From Lacinutrix sp. 5H-3-7-4 (GTDB lineage Bacteria > Bacteroidota > Bacteroidia > Flavobacteriales > Flavobacteriaceae): 64,000 nt of DNA. The position numbers were made by a program, and so were the translations under genes. The stretch covers positions 992,001-1,056,000 of the forward strand of contig NC_015638.1 in assembly GCF_000211855.2 (NCBI RefSeq), in the 5' to 3' direction. Shown in pieces: positions 10,404-18,950 of the stretch. The notes below the pieces were generated by a model, which was given only the letters and a program-made list of their open reading frames with translations, searched no databases and was not told where the DNA came from. Numbering within the stretch: position 1 is the stretch's first letter; each line of letters starts with the position of its first letter.

Positions 10404-13400
10404 ATGAAAAACAAAAGCCCTAAGTTTCATGTCGTTGGTATTGGAGCGTCTGCTGGTGGTTTAGATGCTATTCAAACATTGTTTGACCACATACCGCCTA
10501 ATACAGGAATGGCATTTATAATTATACAGCACCTTTCTCCAGATTTTAAAAGCCTAATGCCAGAGCTACTAAGTAAGCATACAGAAATGCCTATTTATAC
10601 AGCAGAAGACAAACTAAAAATAAAACCAAATTGCGTTTATTTAAACCAACGTAGCAAAAACCTACACATAAAAGGGTCTCAATTATACCTATTAGACAAA
10701 GGCCCAAAAAATAATCTAAACTTACCAATAGACATTTTTTTTCATACGCTTGGAGAAGAATTTAAAGAAAAATCTATTGGTGTAATATTATCTGGAACAG
10801 GATCTGATGGATCCAGAGGTATAAAAACAATAAAAGAAGGTCGAGGCACAATTATTGTTCAAGACCCAACATCTGCCCAATTTGATGGAATGCCAAACTC
10901 TGCAATTTCAACAAATATTGTAGACTACATTTTGAACCCAAAAAAAATAGCAGAAATCATACATAAAAATCCAACAAGCAGGTCTCTAGCTCTTAATGAT
11001 TTTGAAAAAAATCCATCTAACGAATCCTTGATAAATGACATATTAACTGTTGTTTATAAACACTCTGGCATAGATTTTAGAGAATATAAAAAAAATACAC
11101 TTTTAAGACGTATAGAAAAAAGAATGAATATAAAAAATATTCAACACCTATACGATTACACTACATTTGTTTCAAGTAATATAGAAGAGCAGCAAGCTCT
11201 ACAAGAAGATTTTTTAATAGGTGTTACACGCTTTTTTAGAGACAGTGAAGCCTTCAAAAATTTAAAAGAAAAAGTAATTCCAGAGTTATGTAAAAATAAA
11301 GACAACTCTGAAATTATAAGGGTTTGGATAGCAGGTTGCTCTACAGGAGAAGAAGTCTATACATTAGCAATATTAATAGACAATTATATAAGATCTCACC
11401 AACTAAATCTTGATTTTAAAATATTTGCAACAGATATAGATCCTACAGCATTAAACATTGCTGGTAAAGGCATGTATCATGTAAATATTATAAATGAAAT
11501 TGATAAAATATACTTAGACCAATATTTTATAAAAACAGGAAATAAAATACAAATTATTAAACGTATTAGAGAAAAAATAGTGTTCTCTTACCATAATTTA
11601 ATTAAAGACCCTCCATTTATAAGAATGGATCTTATTTCTTGTAGAAATCTACTTATTTATTTTGATAGTAAGATACAGAAAAAAGTAATGATGAATTTTC
11701 AGTTTGCCTTAAATAAATATTCTTATTTATTTTTAGGTAATAGCGAATCTTTAGGCGAAGTTTCAAAGTATTTTAAAACAATAGATGTAAAATGGAAAAT
11801 TTTTCAAAATATATCCTCTACAAAACAAATACCATCACAAAATTCAAGTATAGATAAAATATCGGCAATAGCATACAAGTACCCTGAACGCAAAAACACA
11901 TACAGCTCTTTAAATATAAAGGAAAGTCCAGAGTTAATTTTTCATAAATATTTAAGTCAAAAATTTAGTCCTGCCTCTATTTTTATTGATAAAGATTTCA
12001 ATATTCTATTTATTAATGGTGATGCAGGAAAACGCTTATCTCACAATTCAGGAATTTTTCAAAACAACTTATTGCAAATGGTAAGCCCAGACATTTCTGT
12101 AGTTATAAGAAGTGGAATAAGAAGACTTGAAGCACAAAAGCAAGATGTTATTATTAAAGGCATTCAAAACAAAACAGAAAAAGAAAATTTCTCTTTCGAT
12201 TTAAAATTTCACGAACCCAAAAATTTTGATAATTTACAAGACTGTTATTTAATAGAATTTAGTAACGATAAGGTTATAAATTATAACCAACCATTAATTG
12301 TTAATAACATTGATATTGATGAGGCATCCGTACAACGCCTTGAGGATTTAGAAAGCGATCTTAAAATAGCAAAAACCGAATTACAAAATGTAGTCGAGGA
12401 ATTAGAAACCAGTAACGAGGAGTTACAATCTTCTAACGAAGAACTAATGGCTTCTAATGAAGAACTTCAAAGTACAAACGAAGAGCTACAATCTGTAAAC
12501 GAAGAACTGTATACCGTAAATACAGAAATGCAGGAAAAAAATAAAGAGCTCACAAACTTAAATAACGACATTACAAACCTGCTAGACAACACAGATATAG
12601 CAACATTATTTTTAGATACAGATTTAAGAATAAGAAAGTTTACACCAGCGCTTCAAGATGTATTTAATTTACAAGAAATAGATCATGGTAGACCTTTATC
12701 TAGTTTTACATCTAACTTTGAAGAGCAAACAAGAAACCTAATAATTAAAGACTCTAAAAACGTATTAGATAAATTAACGGTTATTGAAAAACAAGTAAAA
12801 GACAAGGACGATAACTTTTATTTACTACGTATAAGCCCATTTATTACTTCAGATAAGGTTATAAACGGAGTAGTTATTACACTCGATAACATTAATAAGC
12901 TTAAAGAAATTGAAAATGAATTAGCAGATACAGATTTAAAATATCACAAATTATTCGAAAATTTAAACGAAGCTTTTATTCATGCTAAAATTGTTAAAGA
13001 CAAAAACGGCAATCCTACAGATTGGGAATATATAGATGTTAATCCTGCTTACGAAAAATTATTTAATTTAAAAGCTAAAGCTATAATTGGTAAAAAAGCA
13101 TCTACCGTTTTACCAGTTATAAAAAATGAGTTAACAAATTGGATTAAAAAATATGGCGAAACTGCCATGACAGGCATAGACCAAACTATAGAAGGCTACA
13201 TAAAATCTTTAGATAAATACTTTTTAGTAAACGTATTCTCACCTAAAAATGGTGAATTTGCAGGAACAATAACAGATTTTACTGAGCTTAAAAGTAAAGA
13301 GCAAGCTCTTAAAAAAAGTGAAGCAGAGTTAAATAGAATTCAAGAACTCACAGTTGTTGGCGGCTGGTATTTAGACCTTAAAACAGATAAAGTATACTGG

Positions 13401-14837
13401 ACAGAGCAACTTTTTAAAATGTATGGACTAGACCCTAACTCTACGCCTCCAGACTATTCAAAACAACGAAAATTGTTTACAAAACAAAGCTGGCTAAACC
13501 TTAATAAAGCTGTAGAGAAAACCCAAAAATACGGCATACCTTACGTTATAGAATTAAACCTTATAAAAGAAGATGGCGAAAAAGGATGGCTTAGAGCACA
13601 AGGAGAAGCTGTAAAGGACGAAAAAGGAAACATTATAGCTTTAAGAGGTGCTGCTCAAGATATTACAAAACAAAAATTAATTGAAGAAGAAATAATAAAT
13701 GCAAAAAAAGCAGCAGAATCTGCAAACCTGCACAAAAACTATTTCTTAGCAAATATGAGTCATGAAATTAGAACACCAATGAATGGTGTCTTAGGCTTTT
13801 CAGAATTATTAAAAAAAGATAGTCTATCTAAAACCGATAGATTAAAATATCTTGAAATTATAGATAGTAACTCCAAACAGCTATTAAATTTAATTGACGA
13901 CATTATTGATATTGCCAAAATTGAGTCAAACGAATTAAAAATAAATTATACAGAATGTAATGTACCAAAGCTTATTCAAAACTTACAAATTACCTACAAC
14001 CAATTAAAAATTGTAAAACTTAAAAAGAACATAACATTTACAACTTACATCCCAGAAAACTATAAAGACTTACAAATAATTACAGATGAGCAAAGACTGC
14101 AACAAGTCATATCTAACCTTTTAAACAATTCATTAAAATTTTCTGAAAAAGGTAATATCTCATTTGGCTTTACAGTAATTGGAAAATTTCTAAAGTTCTT
14201 TGTAAAAGATCAAGGTATAGGAATTAACAAAAACAAGCAACTTGAAATATTTGAAAGATTTAAACAGCTAAACTATAAAAGTAACGCAAAATATGGCGGT
14301 ACAGGATTAGGGCTTTCTATAAGTAAAGGAATTGTAACACTATTAGGTGGTGATATTACAGTTACATCTCAAGAAAATAAAGGTTCTATGTTTGAGTTTA
14401 CAATACCTTTAAAAGAAGCAAATACAAAACATAAAAGTATAGAAAAAAACCAAAAGCTTAAAAACAAGTTTTTGCTAAATAAAAATATACTAATTGCAGA
14501 AGACGACTCTTTAATTAGACTTTTATTTAAAATTGTACTTAAAGATACAGGTGTAAATGTGCTATTTGCAAAAAATGGAAAAGAAGCTGTAGAGCTATAT
14601 AAAAGTACGCCTAATATAGATGTTGTGCTTTTAGACATTAGAATGCCAGAAATGAGTGGTATTGAAGCCATGGAAATAATATTAAAATTAAATCCTGAGG
14701 CTAAAATTATTATGCAAACAGCTTATGCTATGCAAGATGAAAAAGAAAAATGCTACCATAAAGGTTGTGTAGATTTCCTATCTAAACCTATTGTAAAAGA
14801 AGAATTGTTTACAAAGCTAAGTAAATGGATTAATTAA
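10404..14837 (+). CDS. CheB-CheR-PAS hybrid histidine kinase with C-terminal receiver
   Basis: This 1477-residue protein joins several signalling modules. Residues about 8-190 form a CheB methylesterase domain with its triad intact (S16 in GASAGG, H43 in IQHLSP, D135 in GTGSDGS) but without the usual CheB receiver. About 205-480 is a CheR methyltransferase, with the SAM loop AGCSTGEEVYT and SCRNLLIYF. A coiled coil rich in SNEEL repeats (about 650-720) leads to about three PAS-type sensor segments (about 725-1095). The kinase core follows: HisKA with H1120 in NMSHEIRTPMNG, HATPase with DQGIGI and GGTGLGLSI, and a receiver with phosphoacceptor D1411. No MCP receptor, CheA or CheW lies nearby, so the methylation substrate is unknown. 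It lacks a recognisable signal peptide or membrane helix, so it should be cytoplasmic. The tandem ncRNA cassettes lie directly downstream. Confidence 0.93.
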   Translation: MKNKSPKFHVVGIGASAGGLDAIQTLFDHIPPNTGMAFIIIQHLSPDFKSLMPELLSKHTEMPIYTAEDKLKIKPNCVYLNQRSKNLHIKGSQLYLLDKGPKNNLNLPIDIFFHTLGEEFKEKSIGVILSGTGSDGSRGIKTIKEGRGTIIVQDPTSAQFDGMPNSAISTNIVDYILNPKKIAEIIHKNPTSRSLALNDFEKNPSNESLINDILTVVYKHSGIDFREYKKNTLLRRIEKRMNIKNIQHLYDYTTFVSSNIEEQQALQEDFLIGVTRFFRDSEAFKNLKEKVIPELCKNKDNSEIIRVWIAGCSTGEEVYTLAILIDNYIRSHQLNLDFKIFATDIDPTALNIAGKGMYHVNIINEIDKIYLDQYFIKTGNKIQIIKRIREKIVFSYHNLIKDPPFIRMDLISCRNLLIYFDSKIQKKVMMNFQFALNKYSYLFLGNSESLGEVSKYFKTIDVKWKIFQNISSTKQIPSQNSSIDKISAIAYKYPERKNTYSSLNIKESPELIFHKYLSQKFSPASIFIDKDFNILFINGDAGKRLSHNSGIFQNNLLQMVSPDISVVIRSGIRRLEAQKQDVIIKGIQNKTEKENFSFDLKFHEPKNFDNLQDCYLIEFSNDKVINYNQPLIVNNIDIDEASVQRLEDLESDLKIAKTELQNVVEELETSNEELQSSNEELMASNEELQSTNEELQSVNEELYTVNTEMQEKNKELTNLNNDITNLLDNTDIATLFLDTDLRIRKFTPALQDVFNLQEIDHGRPLSSFTSNFEEQTRNLIIKDSKNVLDKLTVIEKQVKDKDDNFYLLRISPFITSDKVINGVVITLDNINKLKEIENELADTDLKYHKLFENLNEAFIHAKIVKDKNGNPTDWEYIDVNPAYEKLFNLKAKAIIGKKASTVLPVIKNELTNWIKKYGETAMTGIDQTIEGYIKSLDKYFLVNVFSPKNGEFAGTITDFTELKSKEQALKKSEAELNRIQELTVVGGWYLDLKTDKVYWTEQLFKMYGLDPNSTPPDYSKQRKLFTKQSWLNLNKAVEKTQKYGIPYVIELNLIKEDGEKGWLRAQGEAVKDEKGNIIALRGAAQDITKQKLIEEEIINAKKAAESANLHKNYFLANMSHEIRTPMNGVLGFSELLKKDSLSKTDRLKYLEIIDSNSKQLLNLIDDIIDIAKIESNELKINYTECNVPKLIQNLQITYNQLKIVKLKKNITFTTYIPENYKDLQIITDEQRLQQVISNLLNNSLKFSEKGNISFGFTVIGKFLKFFVKDQGIGINKNKQLEIFERFKQLNYKSNAKYGGTGLGLSISKGIVTLLGGDITVTSQENKGSMFEFTIPLKEANTKHKSIEKNQKLKNKFLLNKNILIAEDDSLIRLLFKIVLKDTGVNVLFAKNGKEAVELYKSTPNIDVVLLDIRMPEMSGIEAMEIILKLNPEAKIIMQTAYAMQDEKEKCYHKGCVDFLSKPIVKEELFTKLSKWIN

Positions 14838-14849
14838 AGTATTACTAAA

Positions 14850-14893
14850 GGAATTTGTTACCATACAATGGTAATTTTAAAGTAACAAATTCC
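14850..14893 (+). repeat. Nested inverted repeat downstream of the CheB-CheR kinase gene
   Basis: GGAATTTGTTAC (14850-14861) and GTAACAAATTCC (14882-14893) are perfect 12-bp complements. Inside them TTACCAT-ACA-ATGGTAA forms a second perfect hairpin that reuses part of the left arm, so the two structures compete. No T-run follows, so it is not a classic terminator; it may mark the mRNA 3' end or bind a protein. Confidence 0.6.
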
Positions 14894-14997
14894 ACAGTGC
14901 TACATAAAAATCTTCTACTTCTATAATTATTAAAAAACTAATAATTATTAATCGACTAAAAACGCATTAACAAGATTAAGACTTAAAAATACTGTTG

Positions 14998-15127
14998 TTT
15001 TTTCTTACAAATATCGGTTTTACGGTTTTTCCCGTAAGATGAAATGCACAAATGCACATTTTTTCGATGAAATACACATAAATAAAACAAAAAATTTTGC
15101 GAGGTTCTTTTTATTCCAATAATTTTG
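14998..15127 (+). promoter_or_regulatory. Upstream control region and promoter, ncRNA copy A
   Basis: The region holds TTACGG-N6-CCGTAA (15020-15037), an AAATG/CATTT inverted pair (about 15042-15061), TTCGATGAA (15063-15071), then a promoter: TTTG 15096-15099, 20 bp, TAATTTTG 15120-15127. Every element recurs exactly 341 bp downstream in copy B. The likely start is near 15133. The identity of the binding protein is unknown. Confidence 0.75.
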
Positions 15128-15132
15128 AAAAC

Positions 15133-15303
15133 AATCAATCAGCAAAAGGAATTTTACTTCCTTTTTGATTAAAACTTTTTACTTAACTATTTCATTATTC
15201 TACAAAAATGATATTAAGTAAAATTCTAGATAATAAAGTAGGTCTTATTATACTAGATTGGGTTAATAGCGGAAAAAGCCAACTCGTAAGAGTTGGCTTT
15301 TTT
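15133..15303 (+). ncRNA. Structured non-coding RNA, copy A
   Basis: About 171 nt from predicted start to terminator, with no meaningful open frame. Three hairpins precede the terminator. H1 has the outer stem AATCA/TGATT and inner stem AAAAGGAA/TTCCTTTT. H2 pairs TTTTACTTAA with TTAAGTAAAA and carries the apical loop ATTCTACA. H3 pairs TCTAG-ATAATAA with TTATTAT-A-CTAGA and has the loop AGTAGGTC. Then comes the single-stranded GGTTAATAGCGGAAAA. Loop H2 (UCUAC) can pair with loop H3 (GUAGG). The fold does not bring the two ends together as 6S RNA does. I cannot place it in a named Rfam family; the Flavo-1 and 6S-Flavo motifs should be compared. Ends are predicted, not measured. Confidence 0.72.
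15273..15303 (+). terminator. Terminator of ncRNA copy A
   Basis: AAAAAGCCAACTC-GTAA-GAGTTGGCTTTTTT is a 13-bp perfect stem with a T-run on the plus strand. Confidence 0.93.
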
Positions 15304-15340
15304 ATTTTAAAACAATTTTTCTCCTATATTTTTAGTTATG

Positions 15341-15468
15341 TTTTCTTACAAAAAAAAATTTTACGGTTTTTACCGTAAGCCAAAATGTTAATTATTGGCA
15401 TTTTTCGACGAAATACATCATTTTCTAAAAAATAAAATTGTGAAACTCTTAACATTGCAATAGTTTTG
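15341..15468 (+). promoter_or_regulatory. Upstream control region and promoter, ncRNA copy B
   Basis: It repeats the copy A layout at a gapless 341-bp offset: TTACGG-N6-CCGTAA (15361-15378), an AAATG/CATT pair, TTCGACGAA (15404-15412), ATTG (15437-15440), 20 bp, TAGTTTTG (15461-15468). The filler sequence between these elements differs widely from copy A. Confidence 0.75.
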
Positions 15469-15473
15469 AAAGA

Positions 15474-15650
15474 GACAAATCAAACAATAGAGTTATTAGT
15501 TCCTTTATTTGATTTAAACCTTTTACTTTAATTAATCATTATTCTACACAATGATATAAAAGTAAAGTTCTAGTTAATAAAGTAGGCCTTATTATACTAG
15601 AATTGGTTAATAGCGGAAAAAAAGCCAACTCATATGAGTTGGCTTTTTTT
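15474..15650 (+). ncRNA. Structured non-coding RNA, copy B
   Basis: About 177 nt, a diverged tandem copy of the RNA at 15133. H1 is now closed by AAATCAAA/TTTGATTT, so the sequence changed while pairing was kept. H2 pairs TTTACTTT with AAAGTAAA and ATCATT with AATGAT around the same ATTCTACA loop. H3 is TTCTAG-TTAATAA against TTATTA-CTAGAA with the loop AGTAGGCC. GGTTAATAGCGGAAAA is unchanged. Pairing is retained with changed bases in the stems while loops and linker stay fixed, which is the pattern of a functional RNA. The role is unknown. Confidence 0.72.
15617..15650. terminator. Terminator of ncRNA copy B
   Basis: AAAAAAAGCCAACTCAT followed directly by its complement gives a perfect 34-base palindrome with seven T at each strand's 3' side. 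It can also stop the convergent LysM gene transcript. Confidence 0.93.
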
Positions 15651-15668
15651 TATTCTATATATTAATAT

Positions 15669-16154
15669 TTACTCTTTTGTAGGAATACGTAATACTTGAC
15701 CTGGGTAAATTTTATCTGGGTGTTCAAGCATTGGTTTATTAGCTTCAAAAATGGTTGGGTATTCCATAGCATTTCCATAAAACTTCTTTGCGATTTTTCC
15801 TAAAGTGTCACCACTTACAACTGTATGAAATTGAGCTTCTGGTTCTTTATGCTCAACCGTCATTTGGTCGTCTACAGTAGCAATACCAATACTGTTTCCT
15901 ACTACTAAAATTGCTTTCTCTTTTGTTGCTTGGTCTTGAGCCATACCAGAGATTGTAGCGGCATCATCATCAATATGTATGCTTAATCCATCAACTTGTA
16001 AGTCTAGATCTCTAATTGTTTCTTCTAGTTTTCTAGCAGCAGCAGCTTCTTCTTTAAGTTCTGCGGCAGCAGCTTCTGCAGCTTCTTCTTTATCTGTTTT
16101 TCCTATGCCAAATACTTTAGCGCCTGCATTTTTAATAAATGAAAATAATCCCAT
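15669..16154 (-). CDS. BON-LysM protein (Kbp/YgaU-like)
   Basis: The 161-residue product has the same order as E. coli Kbp (YgaU): an N-terminal segment with an alanine/glutamate-rich helix (about residues 22-45), a BON domain (about 48-103) and a C-terminal LysM domain (about 107-158, HTVVSGDTLGKIAKKFYG to IYPGQVLRIP). There is no signal peptide, so like Kbp it may stay in the cytoplasm, where the E. coli protein binds potassium. That role is known for the homolog and only inferred here. The stop lies 18 nt from the terminator of ncRNA copy B, which faces it. Confidence 0.88.
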   Translation of the reverse strand: MGLFSFIKNAGAKVFGIGKTDKEEAAEAAAAELKEEAAAARKLEETIRDLDLQVDGLSIHIDDDAATISGMAQDQATKEKAILVVGNSIGIATVDDQMTVEHKEPEAQFHTVVSGDTLGKIAKKFYGNAMEYPTIFEANKPMLEHPDKIYPGQVLRIPTKE

Positions 16155-18453: not shown

Positions 18454-18537
18454 GGGCGTTACCTAAAGGTCGCGCTTTACGTTACAATCTTTTTAATCGT
18501 GCCTCATAAAAAGGATTTCTACTGCAATCGCTAACGC
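18454..18537 (+). repeat. Flavobacterial dispersed palindromic repeat, copy 1
   Basis: The 84-bp element begins GGGCGTTACC-AAAGGTCGCGC and ends ATCGCTAACGC, so its ends (GCGTTA/TAACGC) are inverted repeats; the centre AATCTTTTTA...TAAAAAGGATT forms a hairpin. A second copy lies in reverse orientation at 35928-36020. The design resembles the short REP-like repeats scattered in flavobacterial genomes. Confidence 0.72.
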
Positions 18538-18554
18538 ACACCAAGTGAGATTAG

Positions 18555-18950
18555 TTACTTAACCAAAATACCTTTTAATTGCATTAATGGTACACGTTGC
18601 AAAGCCTTATCGTTTATCGTATTTTTTCTAAACAAATACGTTTTATCGTACATTGTATTACCTTCAAAAAAAGTAATTTTAAAAGTATTATTTAAAGCTA
18701 GCACCTTAGTTTGCAAGTATTCTATTTTAGCATAACTTCTTGCTGGAAGTTTAGCTATTGTATGACGCATTGGTGGTGTCATTTTAGTATCATTATAACC
18801 TTGAGACACTATGATTACAGTATCTAAATCTTGATCGCTATTATTTATAATGTAAGCATTCCAATCTAAAGTTTTATATTCTATATGTTCCTCCTGTACA
18901 ACAGCAACATGTATATCTTTTACCTCAGGAATAGTAATGTCTTTTTTCAT
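18555..18950 (-). CDS. Conserved flavobacterial protein of unknown function
   Basis: The 131-residue protein has no signal peptide, membrane helix or cysteine. It is predicted to be mostly beta strands, with the block YKTLDWNAYIINNSDQDLD near residues 25-43 and a basic C-terminus. It is the last gene of the heme/iron minus-strand cluster, but a 62-nt gap separates it from the gene before, so its membership is not certain. I recognise it only as a type of hypothetical protein common in the family. Confidence 0.7.
   Translation of the reverse strand: MKKDITIPEVKDIHVAVVQEEHIEYKTLDWNAYIINNSDQDLDTVIIVSQGYNDTKMTPPMRHTIAKLPARSYAKIEYLQTKVLALNNTFKITFFEGNTMYDKTYLFRKNTINDKALQRVPLMQLKGILVK

Follow-up and report, generated by a model that had tools for sequence, protein, structure and literature searches.

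The two small RNAs (sRNAs) predicted in a gene-free part of the window (the whole 64,000-nucleotide stretch of DNA that was analyzed), here called w1 and w2, appear to belong to a set of sRNAs that share a seed, block messages starting with GCUAUUAAYC, and are opposed by an RNA carrying the complementary sequence. We favor this reading, if only by a modest margin. Computation shows the cassettes and their conservation, covariation in a stem, an excess of the word found in the linker of the two RNAs, the placement of that word before terminators, and the placement of its complement after −7 boxes.

Tandem cassettes and their conservation

Positions 14838–15668 hold two promoter-RNA-terminator cassettes of ~340 bp each, arranged head-to-tail and showing 85% mean column identity when aligned. 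No ORF of 80 aa or more lies in this interval, which is flanked on one side by a CheB-CheR-histidine kinase-receiver gene (10404–14837, plus strand) and on the other by a LysM/BON gene (15669–16154, minus strand). Each cassette has an upstream element, a −33 TTG, a 20-bp spacer, a −7 box of the form TAnTTTTG, a predicted RNA of 173–180 nt, and an intrinsic terminator (Table 1); the housekeeping −7 consensus of Flavobacterium psychrophilum is TAnnTTTG (PMC9723704). An earlier sequence-only reading had claimed tandem cassettes in a gene-free stretch, each with its own promoter, 20-bp spacer, and strong terminator. These claims held, with promoters, bodies, and terminators all found in the sequence, and the stems that it named fold as described in both w1 and w2. 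It overlooked the upstream element, the family-wide occurrence of the linker word, and the word's complement at likely 5′ ends.

Table 1. Positions of the cassette features in the window
Feature	Position	Strand	Remarks
Upstream element, cassette 1	15020–15071	+	TTACGG-T5-CCCGTAA, 23 bp, TTTTCGATGAA; ungapped in alignment of 18 upstream regions
Promoter 1	15097–15127	+	−33 TTG at 15097–15099, 20-bp spacer, −7 TAATTTTG at 15120–15127
Predicted sRNA w1, ~173 nt	15132–15304	+	Inferred from promoter-to-terminator distance
Hairpin A of w1	15177–15223	+	Folding prediction
Hairpin B of w1	15226–15256	+	Loop AGTAGGTC; covarying stem
Proposed seed of w1	15261–15271	+	GGTTAATAGCG
Intrinsic terminator of w1	15273–15304	+	GCCAACTC-GTAA-GAGTTGGC and T-run, end ~15304
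Upstream element, cassette 2	15361–15412	+	TTACGG-T5-ACCGTAA, 23 bp, TTTTCGACGAA
Promoter 2	15438–15468	+	−33 TTG at 15438–15440, 20-bp spacer, −7 TAGTTTTG at 15461–15468
Predicted sRNA w2, ~180 nt	15473–15652	+	Inferred
Hairpin A of w2	15522–15566	+	Folding prediction
Hairpin B of w2	15570–15600	+	Loop AGTAGGCC
Proposed seed of w2	15605–15615	+	GGTTAATAGCG
Intrinsic terminator of w2	15618–15652	+	End ~15652

The whole 653-bp stretch at this locus is kept in a second genome of the genus, G006, at 77%. All 13 genus genomes match this 653-bp query somewhere, many of the matches being the terminator or the upstream element alone, and 15 sRNA cassettes were located in 10 of the 13: one each in G001, G003, G004, G007, G011, and G012, two each in G000, G006, and G010, and three in G005. 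No cassette was present among the query matches in G002, G008, and G009, of which G008 (78%) and G009 (89%) are incomplete. A gene that we take, by resemblance, to be nadD-like lies on one side of the cassette locus in 10 of 10 genomes, with an extra gene intervening in four loci (the window, L083, L076, and L073), and a LysM gene lies on the other side in 9 of 10. When a covariance model extending from hairpin B to the terminator (R1) was searched in 199 family genomes, strong matches (88–99 bits) were confined to G000 and G006. Matches of 40–55 bits were obtained in 31 further genomes and at one further place in G006, and no homologous cassette was seen in the 28 weak loci inspected. Judged by this search, the w1/w2 pair is likely to be genus-specific. 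A contig scan with GGTTAATAGCGGAAAAA returned 35 stretches, and the sequence surrounding them showed cassettes only in two Lacinutrix records (L049 and L063).

The loop core TAGG of hairpin B, the linker G(A/G)TTAATAGCG, and a terminator following the linker are constant in all 15 copies, and to this extent the earlier claim of a fixed loop and linker held; the seed is invariant in 15 of 15 cassettes except for G or A at its second base. The claim of a fixed loop ATTCTACA held only in part, as this sequence is confined to the two window copies and one of the pair in G006, and hairpin 1 failed as a general feature. It is lineage-specific, being absent from the G004 and G005 copies (~125 nt) and from both G010 copies (~85 nt), which also lack hairpin 2. 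Folding predictions place a hairpin A, differing in sequence, in 13 of the 15 cassettes; both G010 copies lack it.

Covariation was evaluated over hairpin B and the terminator in an alignment of 14 copies, all except the near-duplicate G005c, with 97.4% of cells paired. Changes on both sides occur at 6 of 22 pairs, a number reached by 1 of 500 shuffles, and in 19 cells compared with 4.7 in shuffles, none of the 500 reaching 19. The covariation score is 0.219 compared with 0.123 in shuffles, again reached by none of the 500, and slid versions scored 0.071 at most. Further pair types showed no excess (10 compared with 11.0 in shuffles), and kinship among the rows makes all of these figures optimistic. 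The hairpin B stem thus covaries, which supports the earlier proposal of selection on an RNA.

A 56-aa ORF (MILSKILDNKVGLIILDWVNS..., window positions 15208–15378, plus strand) overlaps w1. A coding role for it is unlikely, and we judge it to be a chance ORF, because the frame is interrupted in w2 (ATG ATA TAA), although one G006 copy keeps a similar ORF open, and because all 5 of the codons that differ from the G006 counterpart among the first 24 change the amino acid.

The sequence-only reading had also described paralogous tandem non-coding RNAs of unknown family whose ends do not pair as in 6S RNA, and had proposed an Rfam comparison and a search of flavobacterial genomes with a model built from the copies. 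Both were run, the second being the R1 search of 199 genomes described above. As far as Rfam can test it, the description held: Rfam 15 gave nothing at gathering score over the cassettes or in 14 loci with related cassettes or RNAs. The best relaxed matches over the stretch reach 29–32 bits against cut-offs of 48–80, the GibS model (RF04182) reaches 20.2 bits on the opposite strand against a cut-off of 115, and the Qrr model reaches 16.7 bits in the relaxed scan against 50. No 6S family appears among the matches of the stretch, strict or relaxed, consistent with the earlier statement. The only Rfam match in the window is elsewhere, a Flavo-1 RNA (RF01705, 51.5 bits) at 18464–18556 on the minus strand; the function of Flavo-1 could not be clarified in the F. 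psychrophilum study (PMC9723704).

In the upstream element, TTACGG-T5-NCCGTAA stands 23 bp from TTTTCGAYGAA in 18 of 18 exact-pattern matches, the spacing being 22 at one inexact match (L070), and across 18 upstream regions, aligned without gaps, the element keeps a constant distance from the −7 box. A profile of the element (R2), run on the 13 genus genomes, returned the 18 training sites and 11 new sites at 49 bits or above, followed by a gap down to 29 bits, with matches in 12 of the 13 genomes. The exact element is present in 3 of 149 family genomes, two of them from this genus and the third (G104, three copies) the only one among the 147 outside it. Three training sites (L073 6079, L074 5750, and L080 6783, in G004, G005, and G010) precede a gene in the sRNA cassette array for a small PLDc_N-like membrane protein, which scores 18.9 bits in Pfam, under the cut-off of 23.3. 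A new site in G000 (L084 6331) precedes an operon for a short exported protein without a Pfam match, a Porph_ging-domain protein, and a CarbopepD_reg outer-membrane protein. It is possible that one unidentified activator links the sRNAs to surface or export functions.

Other sites of the element before exported-protein genes or operons are L085 6791, L069, L072, and L082; Pfam was used only for L084. The remaining new R2 sites were viewed at the sequence level only, and several precede similar-looking exported proteins. Several of the exported-protein leaders share long conserved stretches. These leaders were considered as sRNA targets via TATTAACC and dropped, as only 8 bases pair and the pairing would also be mismatched in genomes whose sRNA reads GATTAATAGC.

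The linker word and its complement

Among the 28 weak R1 loci, 14 carry the linker beside a terminator, with the word before the terminator on the match strand in 10 and on the other strand in 4, and this observation led to a motif search. In 60 family genomes, TTGRTTAATAGC was found 376 times compared with 65 for reversed-pattern controls, the count being higher than the control in 43 genomes, equal in 7, and lower in 10. The excess is weak in other families of the class (162 compared with 97 in 115 genomes). For GRTTAATAGC, the counts and controls are 50 and 8 in G000, 45 and 10 in G006, and 57 and 16 in G005.

To place these sites, we classified all 50 in G000, all 45 in G006, and 54 of the 57 in G005 (three were too near a locus end), together with 12-mer sites in three other genera (20 in G041, 15 in G046, and 15 in G071), for a total of 199 sites in six genomes, 118 of them intergenic. 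The genomes from other genera were picked for a frequent 12-mer and are not representative of the family. Of the 118 intergenic words, 38 have a terminator downstream on the same strand, 26 of them no more than 5 nt away, compared with 7 of 118 random intergenic positions. For the full set of 199 sites, the terminator counts are 38 after the word and 17 after the complement. The opposite orientation has a different association: a −7 box precedes GCTATTAAYC at 21 of 118 intergenic sites, where 2.8 are expected (binomial 6e-13), but precedes GRTTAATAGC at only 1 of 118. This site-level P value is inflated because many sites are orthologous. With related loci counted once, the −7 box is present at 10 of 60 clusters where 2.8 are expected, the maximum in 200 draws being 8. 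A clear terminator and a strict −7 box are both missing at 61 of the 118 intergenic sites. Sites near start codons are antisense in 23 cases and sense in 9 within the genus, and 5 and 5 in the three other genera.

Conservation of the word was compared by site class. Between G000 and G005, the word survives at 10 of 29 intergenic sites, at 1 of 18 sites deep in coding sequence, and at 0 of 3 near start codons; for G006, the numbers are 14 of 19 sites, against 8 of 10 terminator, 1 of 3 start-codon, and 10 of 18 deep coding sites. The first of these G006 counts excludes L190 with L263, a 32-nt chance alignment, and several G006 pairs are >95% identical and carry little weight. A search of the open-access literature, limited to titles and the starts of abstracts, found no flavobacterial paper in which either the word or the complement is named as a regulatory site; one Elizabethkingia paper contains GATTAATAGC a single time.

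Units with the word before a terminator include w1, w2, and an RNA beside a fabH-like gene (G000, G041, and G046). A tandem word-bearing pair lies beside a purE-like gene in G000 and G006, with a single copy in G041 and G071. The units of the tandem pair consist of a hairpin, GATTAATAGCG, and a terminator, and outside the word they have no visible kinship to w1 and w2. The pair is convergent to the gene, at L187 (G000:C1:1711980 and 1712195) and L266 (G006). The word is also found at message ends, such as that of a katG-like message in G071. We take these genes to be fabH-like, purE-like, and katG-like by resemblance.

The published position of the −7 box is −12 to −5 (PMC9723704), which places +1 on the G of GCTATTAAYC. 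A start codon follows the complement at +19 to +37 in curli-like, lipoprotein-like, and other genes (G000, G006, G005, G041, and G071): at +24 for curlin-repeat proteins (assigned by Pfam for L169) and at +23 to +27 for lipoprotein-like genes in G041 and G071. Longer leaders that seem to begin with the complement are found at an nrdA-like gene, a DUF4230 gene, a glutamate-synthase-domain gene, and a gene of 349 aa found in three genera. An lpd-like gene has a weaker −7 box (4.5 of 5.5), and two genes of unknown function, L206 (+23) and L210 (+37), have the complement near the start codon with boxes of only 3–3.5 of 5.5. At L206, L210, and similar near-start sites, GCTATTAAYC has not been shown to be a 5′ end.

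The complement also begins a predicted short RNA of ~70 nt, which starts with GCTATTAATC, ends in a terminator, and lies downstream of a LuxR-type regulator gene on the same strand. G000, G006, and G041 have one copy each, and G005 has three in tandem (sites L277 1505, 1802, and 1947 in G005; L175 1501; L252 1503; and L313). The RNA has no Rfam match, its 5′ tail is predicted to be unpaired in all 5 sequences folded, and the adjoining regulator in G000 has Response_reg and GerE domains (Pfam). A palindrome, ATACGTA-N-TACGTAT, precedes the RNA and is repeated before each G005 copy; it could be an operator or, instead, the terminator of the regulator gene. Elsewhere in G000, an inverted repeat beside a gene that we take by resemblance to be mazG-like reads AAATGACAT...ATGTCATTT with GCTATTAACC in the loop, and similar sequence is present in G006 and G005 (L167 1501, L262, and L240). 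A decoy hairpin is one possibility for this repeat.

Proposed mechanism and alternative explanations

In the mechanism that we propose, w1 and w2 would be trans-acting sRNAs, each made from a housekeeping-type promoter and ending at its own terminator, and an unidentified regulator at the upstream element would probably activate both promoters. The pairing seed would be the stretch between hairpin B and the terminator that contains G(A/G)UUAAUAGCG, and its partners would be messages that open, from the first transcribed base, with GCUAUUAA(U/C)C. With the start codon 19–37 nt after the complement in many putative targets, pairing would mask the site where the ribosome lands and stop translation. 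Flavobacterial mRNAs have no Shine-Dalgarno sequence (PMC9723704), and therefore blocking of the 5′ stretch may suffice. The regulator-adjacent short RNA, a perfect complement at its start, could serve as a sponge or antagonist. Transcription, pairing, repression, the sponge role, and the activator are all inferred from sequence alone.

The predicted duplexes of w2 with seven chosen sites range from −15.8 to −23.3 kcal/mol and lie below all 300 shuffles in 7 of 7 cases; those of w1 lie below every shuffle in only 4 of 7. Because the seven sites were chosen for holding the complement, these energies speak to the strength of pairing and not to discovery. The seed is predicted to be mostly open in w1 (mean unpaired value 0.71) and only partly open in w2 (0.62), where the first four bases are mostly paired (0.10–0.22). 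By inference from the base sequences, the GG form of the seed in w1 and w2 could pair with both UC and CC targets by means of a G-U pair, whereas the GA form of other copies could not pair fully with CC targets. Symmetric complementarity cannot tell regulator from sponge.

A bolder reading can be entertained, although we lean slightly against it: a Flavobacteriaceae-wide RNA-RNA code, in which a ten-base word before the terminators of unrelated sRNAs and message ends would be read by its complement. The complement would form the opening ten bases of messages, and also those of an opposing short RNA that comes in one to three tandem copies. Initiating nucleotides would then themselves be targeted, and sRNA and anti-sRNA would be balanced without an RbpB-type protein.

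The alternative that survives best, although we consider it unlikely, is that the word is a DNA element, with GCTATTAATC at +1 to +10 acting as an operator or initiator for a protein or the polymerase and the association with terminators being separate or incidental. A place directly after the −7 box fits an operator or an initial transcribed element, both features are missing at 61 of the 118 intergenic sites, and the complement also stands before terminators (17 of 199 sites). However, this explanation does not account for the 26 of 118 sites at which the opposite strand of the word stands no more than 5 nt before a terminator, in sRNA-like units otherwise unrelated in sequence, nor for the single fixed orientation used in each role. 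A second alternative, which we regard as very unlikely, is that w1 and w2 are mainly sponges whose seed titrates the regulator-adjacent RNA starting with GCUAUUAAUC, messages with the same start not being direct targets. The two RNA types are perfectly complementary and both occur in tandem copies, but the conserved GCTATTAATC at the likely start of unrelated messages, near start codons, is left unexplained. Still less likely is that w1 and w2 work by way of a small peptide or of a protein on the UAGG loop or the hairpins, with the word as a general 3′-end module, for example for a chaperone: the TAGG loop core is kept in 15 of 15 copies and the word also stands before message terminators, but the w1 ORF is broken in w2 and a chaperone site needs no exact complement at the 5′ ends of other RNAs.

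Relation to known systems

If w1 and w2 act by seed pairing as we propose, the nearest known system in behavior is FopS. The FopS/GibS sRNAs of Bacteroides thetaiotaomicron are multicopy paralogous Bacteroidota sRNAs with a common seed, as are w1 and w2 at the level of sequence (PMC11697453). FopS/GibS members are intergenic, antisense, and in one case derived from a 3′ UTR; they pair near start codons and block translation, and their predicted targets are enriched in outer-membrane proteins (PMC11697453). The predicted sites described here are suitably placed near start codons, with pairing and repression remaining inferences. The differences are several. FopS pairs through its 5′ end and the RNAs are ~65–70 nt (PMC11697453), whereas the seed of w1 and w2 lies before the terminator of a predicted RNA of 173–180 nt. 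FopS has canonical promoters (PMC11697453), whereas w1 and w2 have an upstream element. FopS associates with RbpB (PMC11697453), but no RRM_1 protein was found in G000: a search at an E value of 0.001 gave no match, the control Bacteroides genome being positive.

A precedent for two RNA families with complementary motifs is provided by cyanobacterial Yfr1 and Yfr2 (PMC6778093), although these come from another phylum, and in the present system messages too are likely to begin with the complement. Rfp18 of F. psychrophilum is likewise a conserved flavobacterial sRNA with a structured body (PMC9723704). Protease and adhesin targets were predicted for Rfp18, and two protease mRNAs changed in the deletion mutant (PMC9723704); it is predicted to pair through its third stem-loop (PMC9723704), unlike the linker seed proposed for w1 and w2. 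Tandem or multicopy sRNAs with a common seed are also known in Qrr, PrrF1/F2, and LhrC. The likeness of w1 and w2 to these is one of copy arrangement and proposed common seed, and sequences were compared only through the Rfam scan. Overall, inference from sequence alone makes w1 and w2 multicopy sRNAs of a known general kind in a new arrangement, and members of no named family.

Post-transcriptional control in the Flavobacteriaceae, a large marine family, is little mapped, and a single sRNA was examined in the F. psychrophilum transcriptome study (PMC9723704). If the proposed mechanism is true, w1, w2, and their partners would give the Bacteroidota a second sRNA network next to that of FopS, different in architecture and without an RRM_1 partner in G000. 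Curli-like fibres, lipoprotein-like genes, the nrdA-like gene, and the glutamate-synthase-domain gene would be ready candidate targets, and a clean test by compensatory changes would be available.
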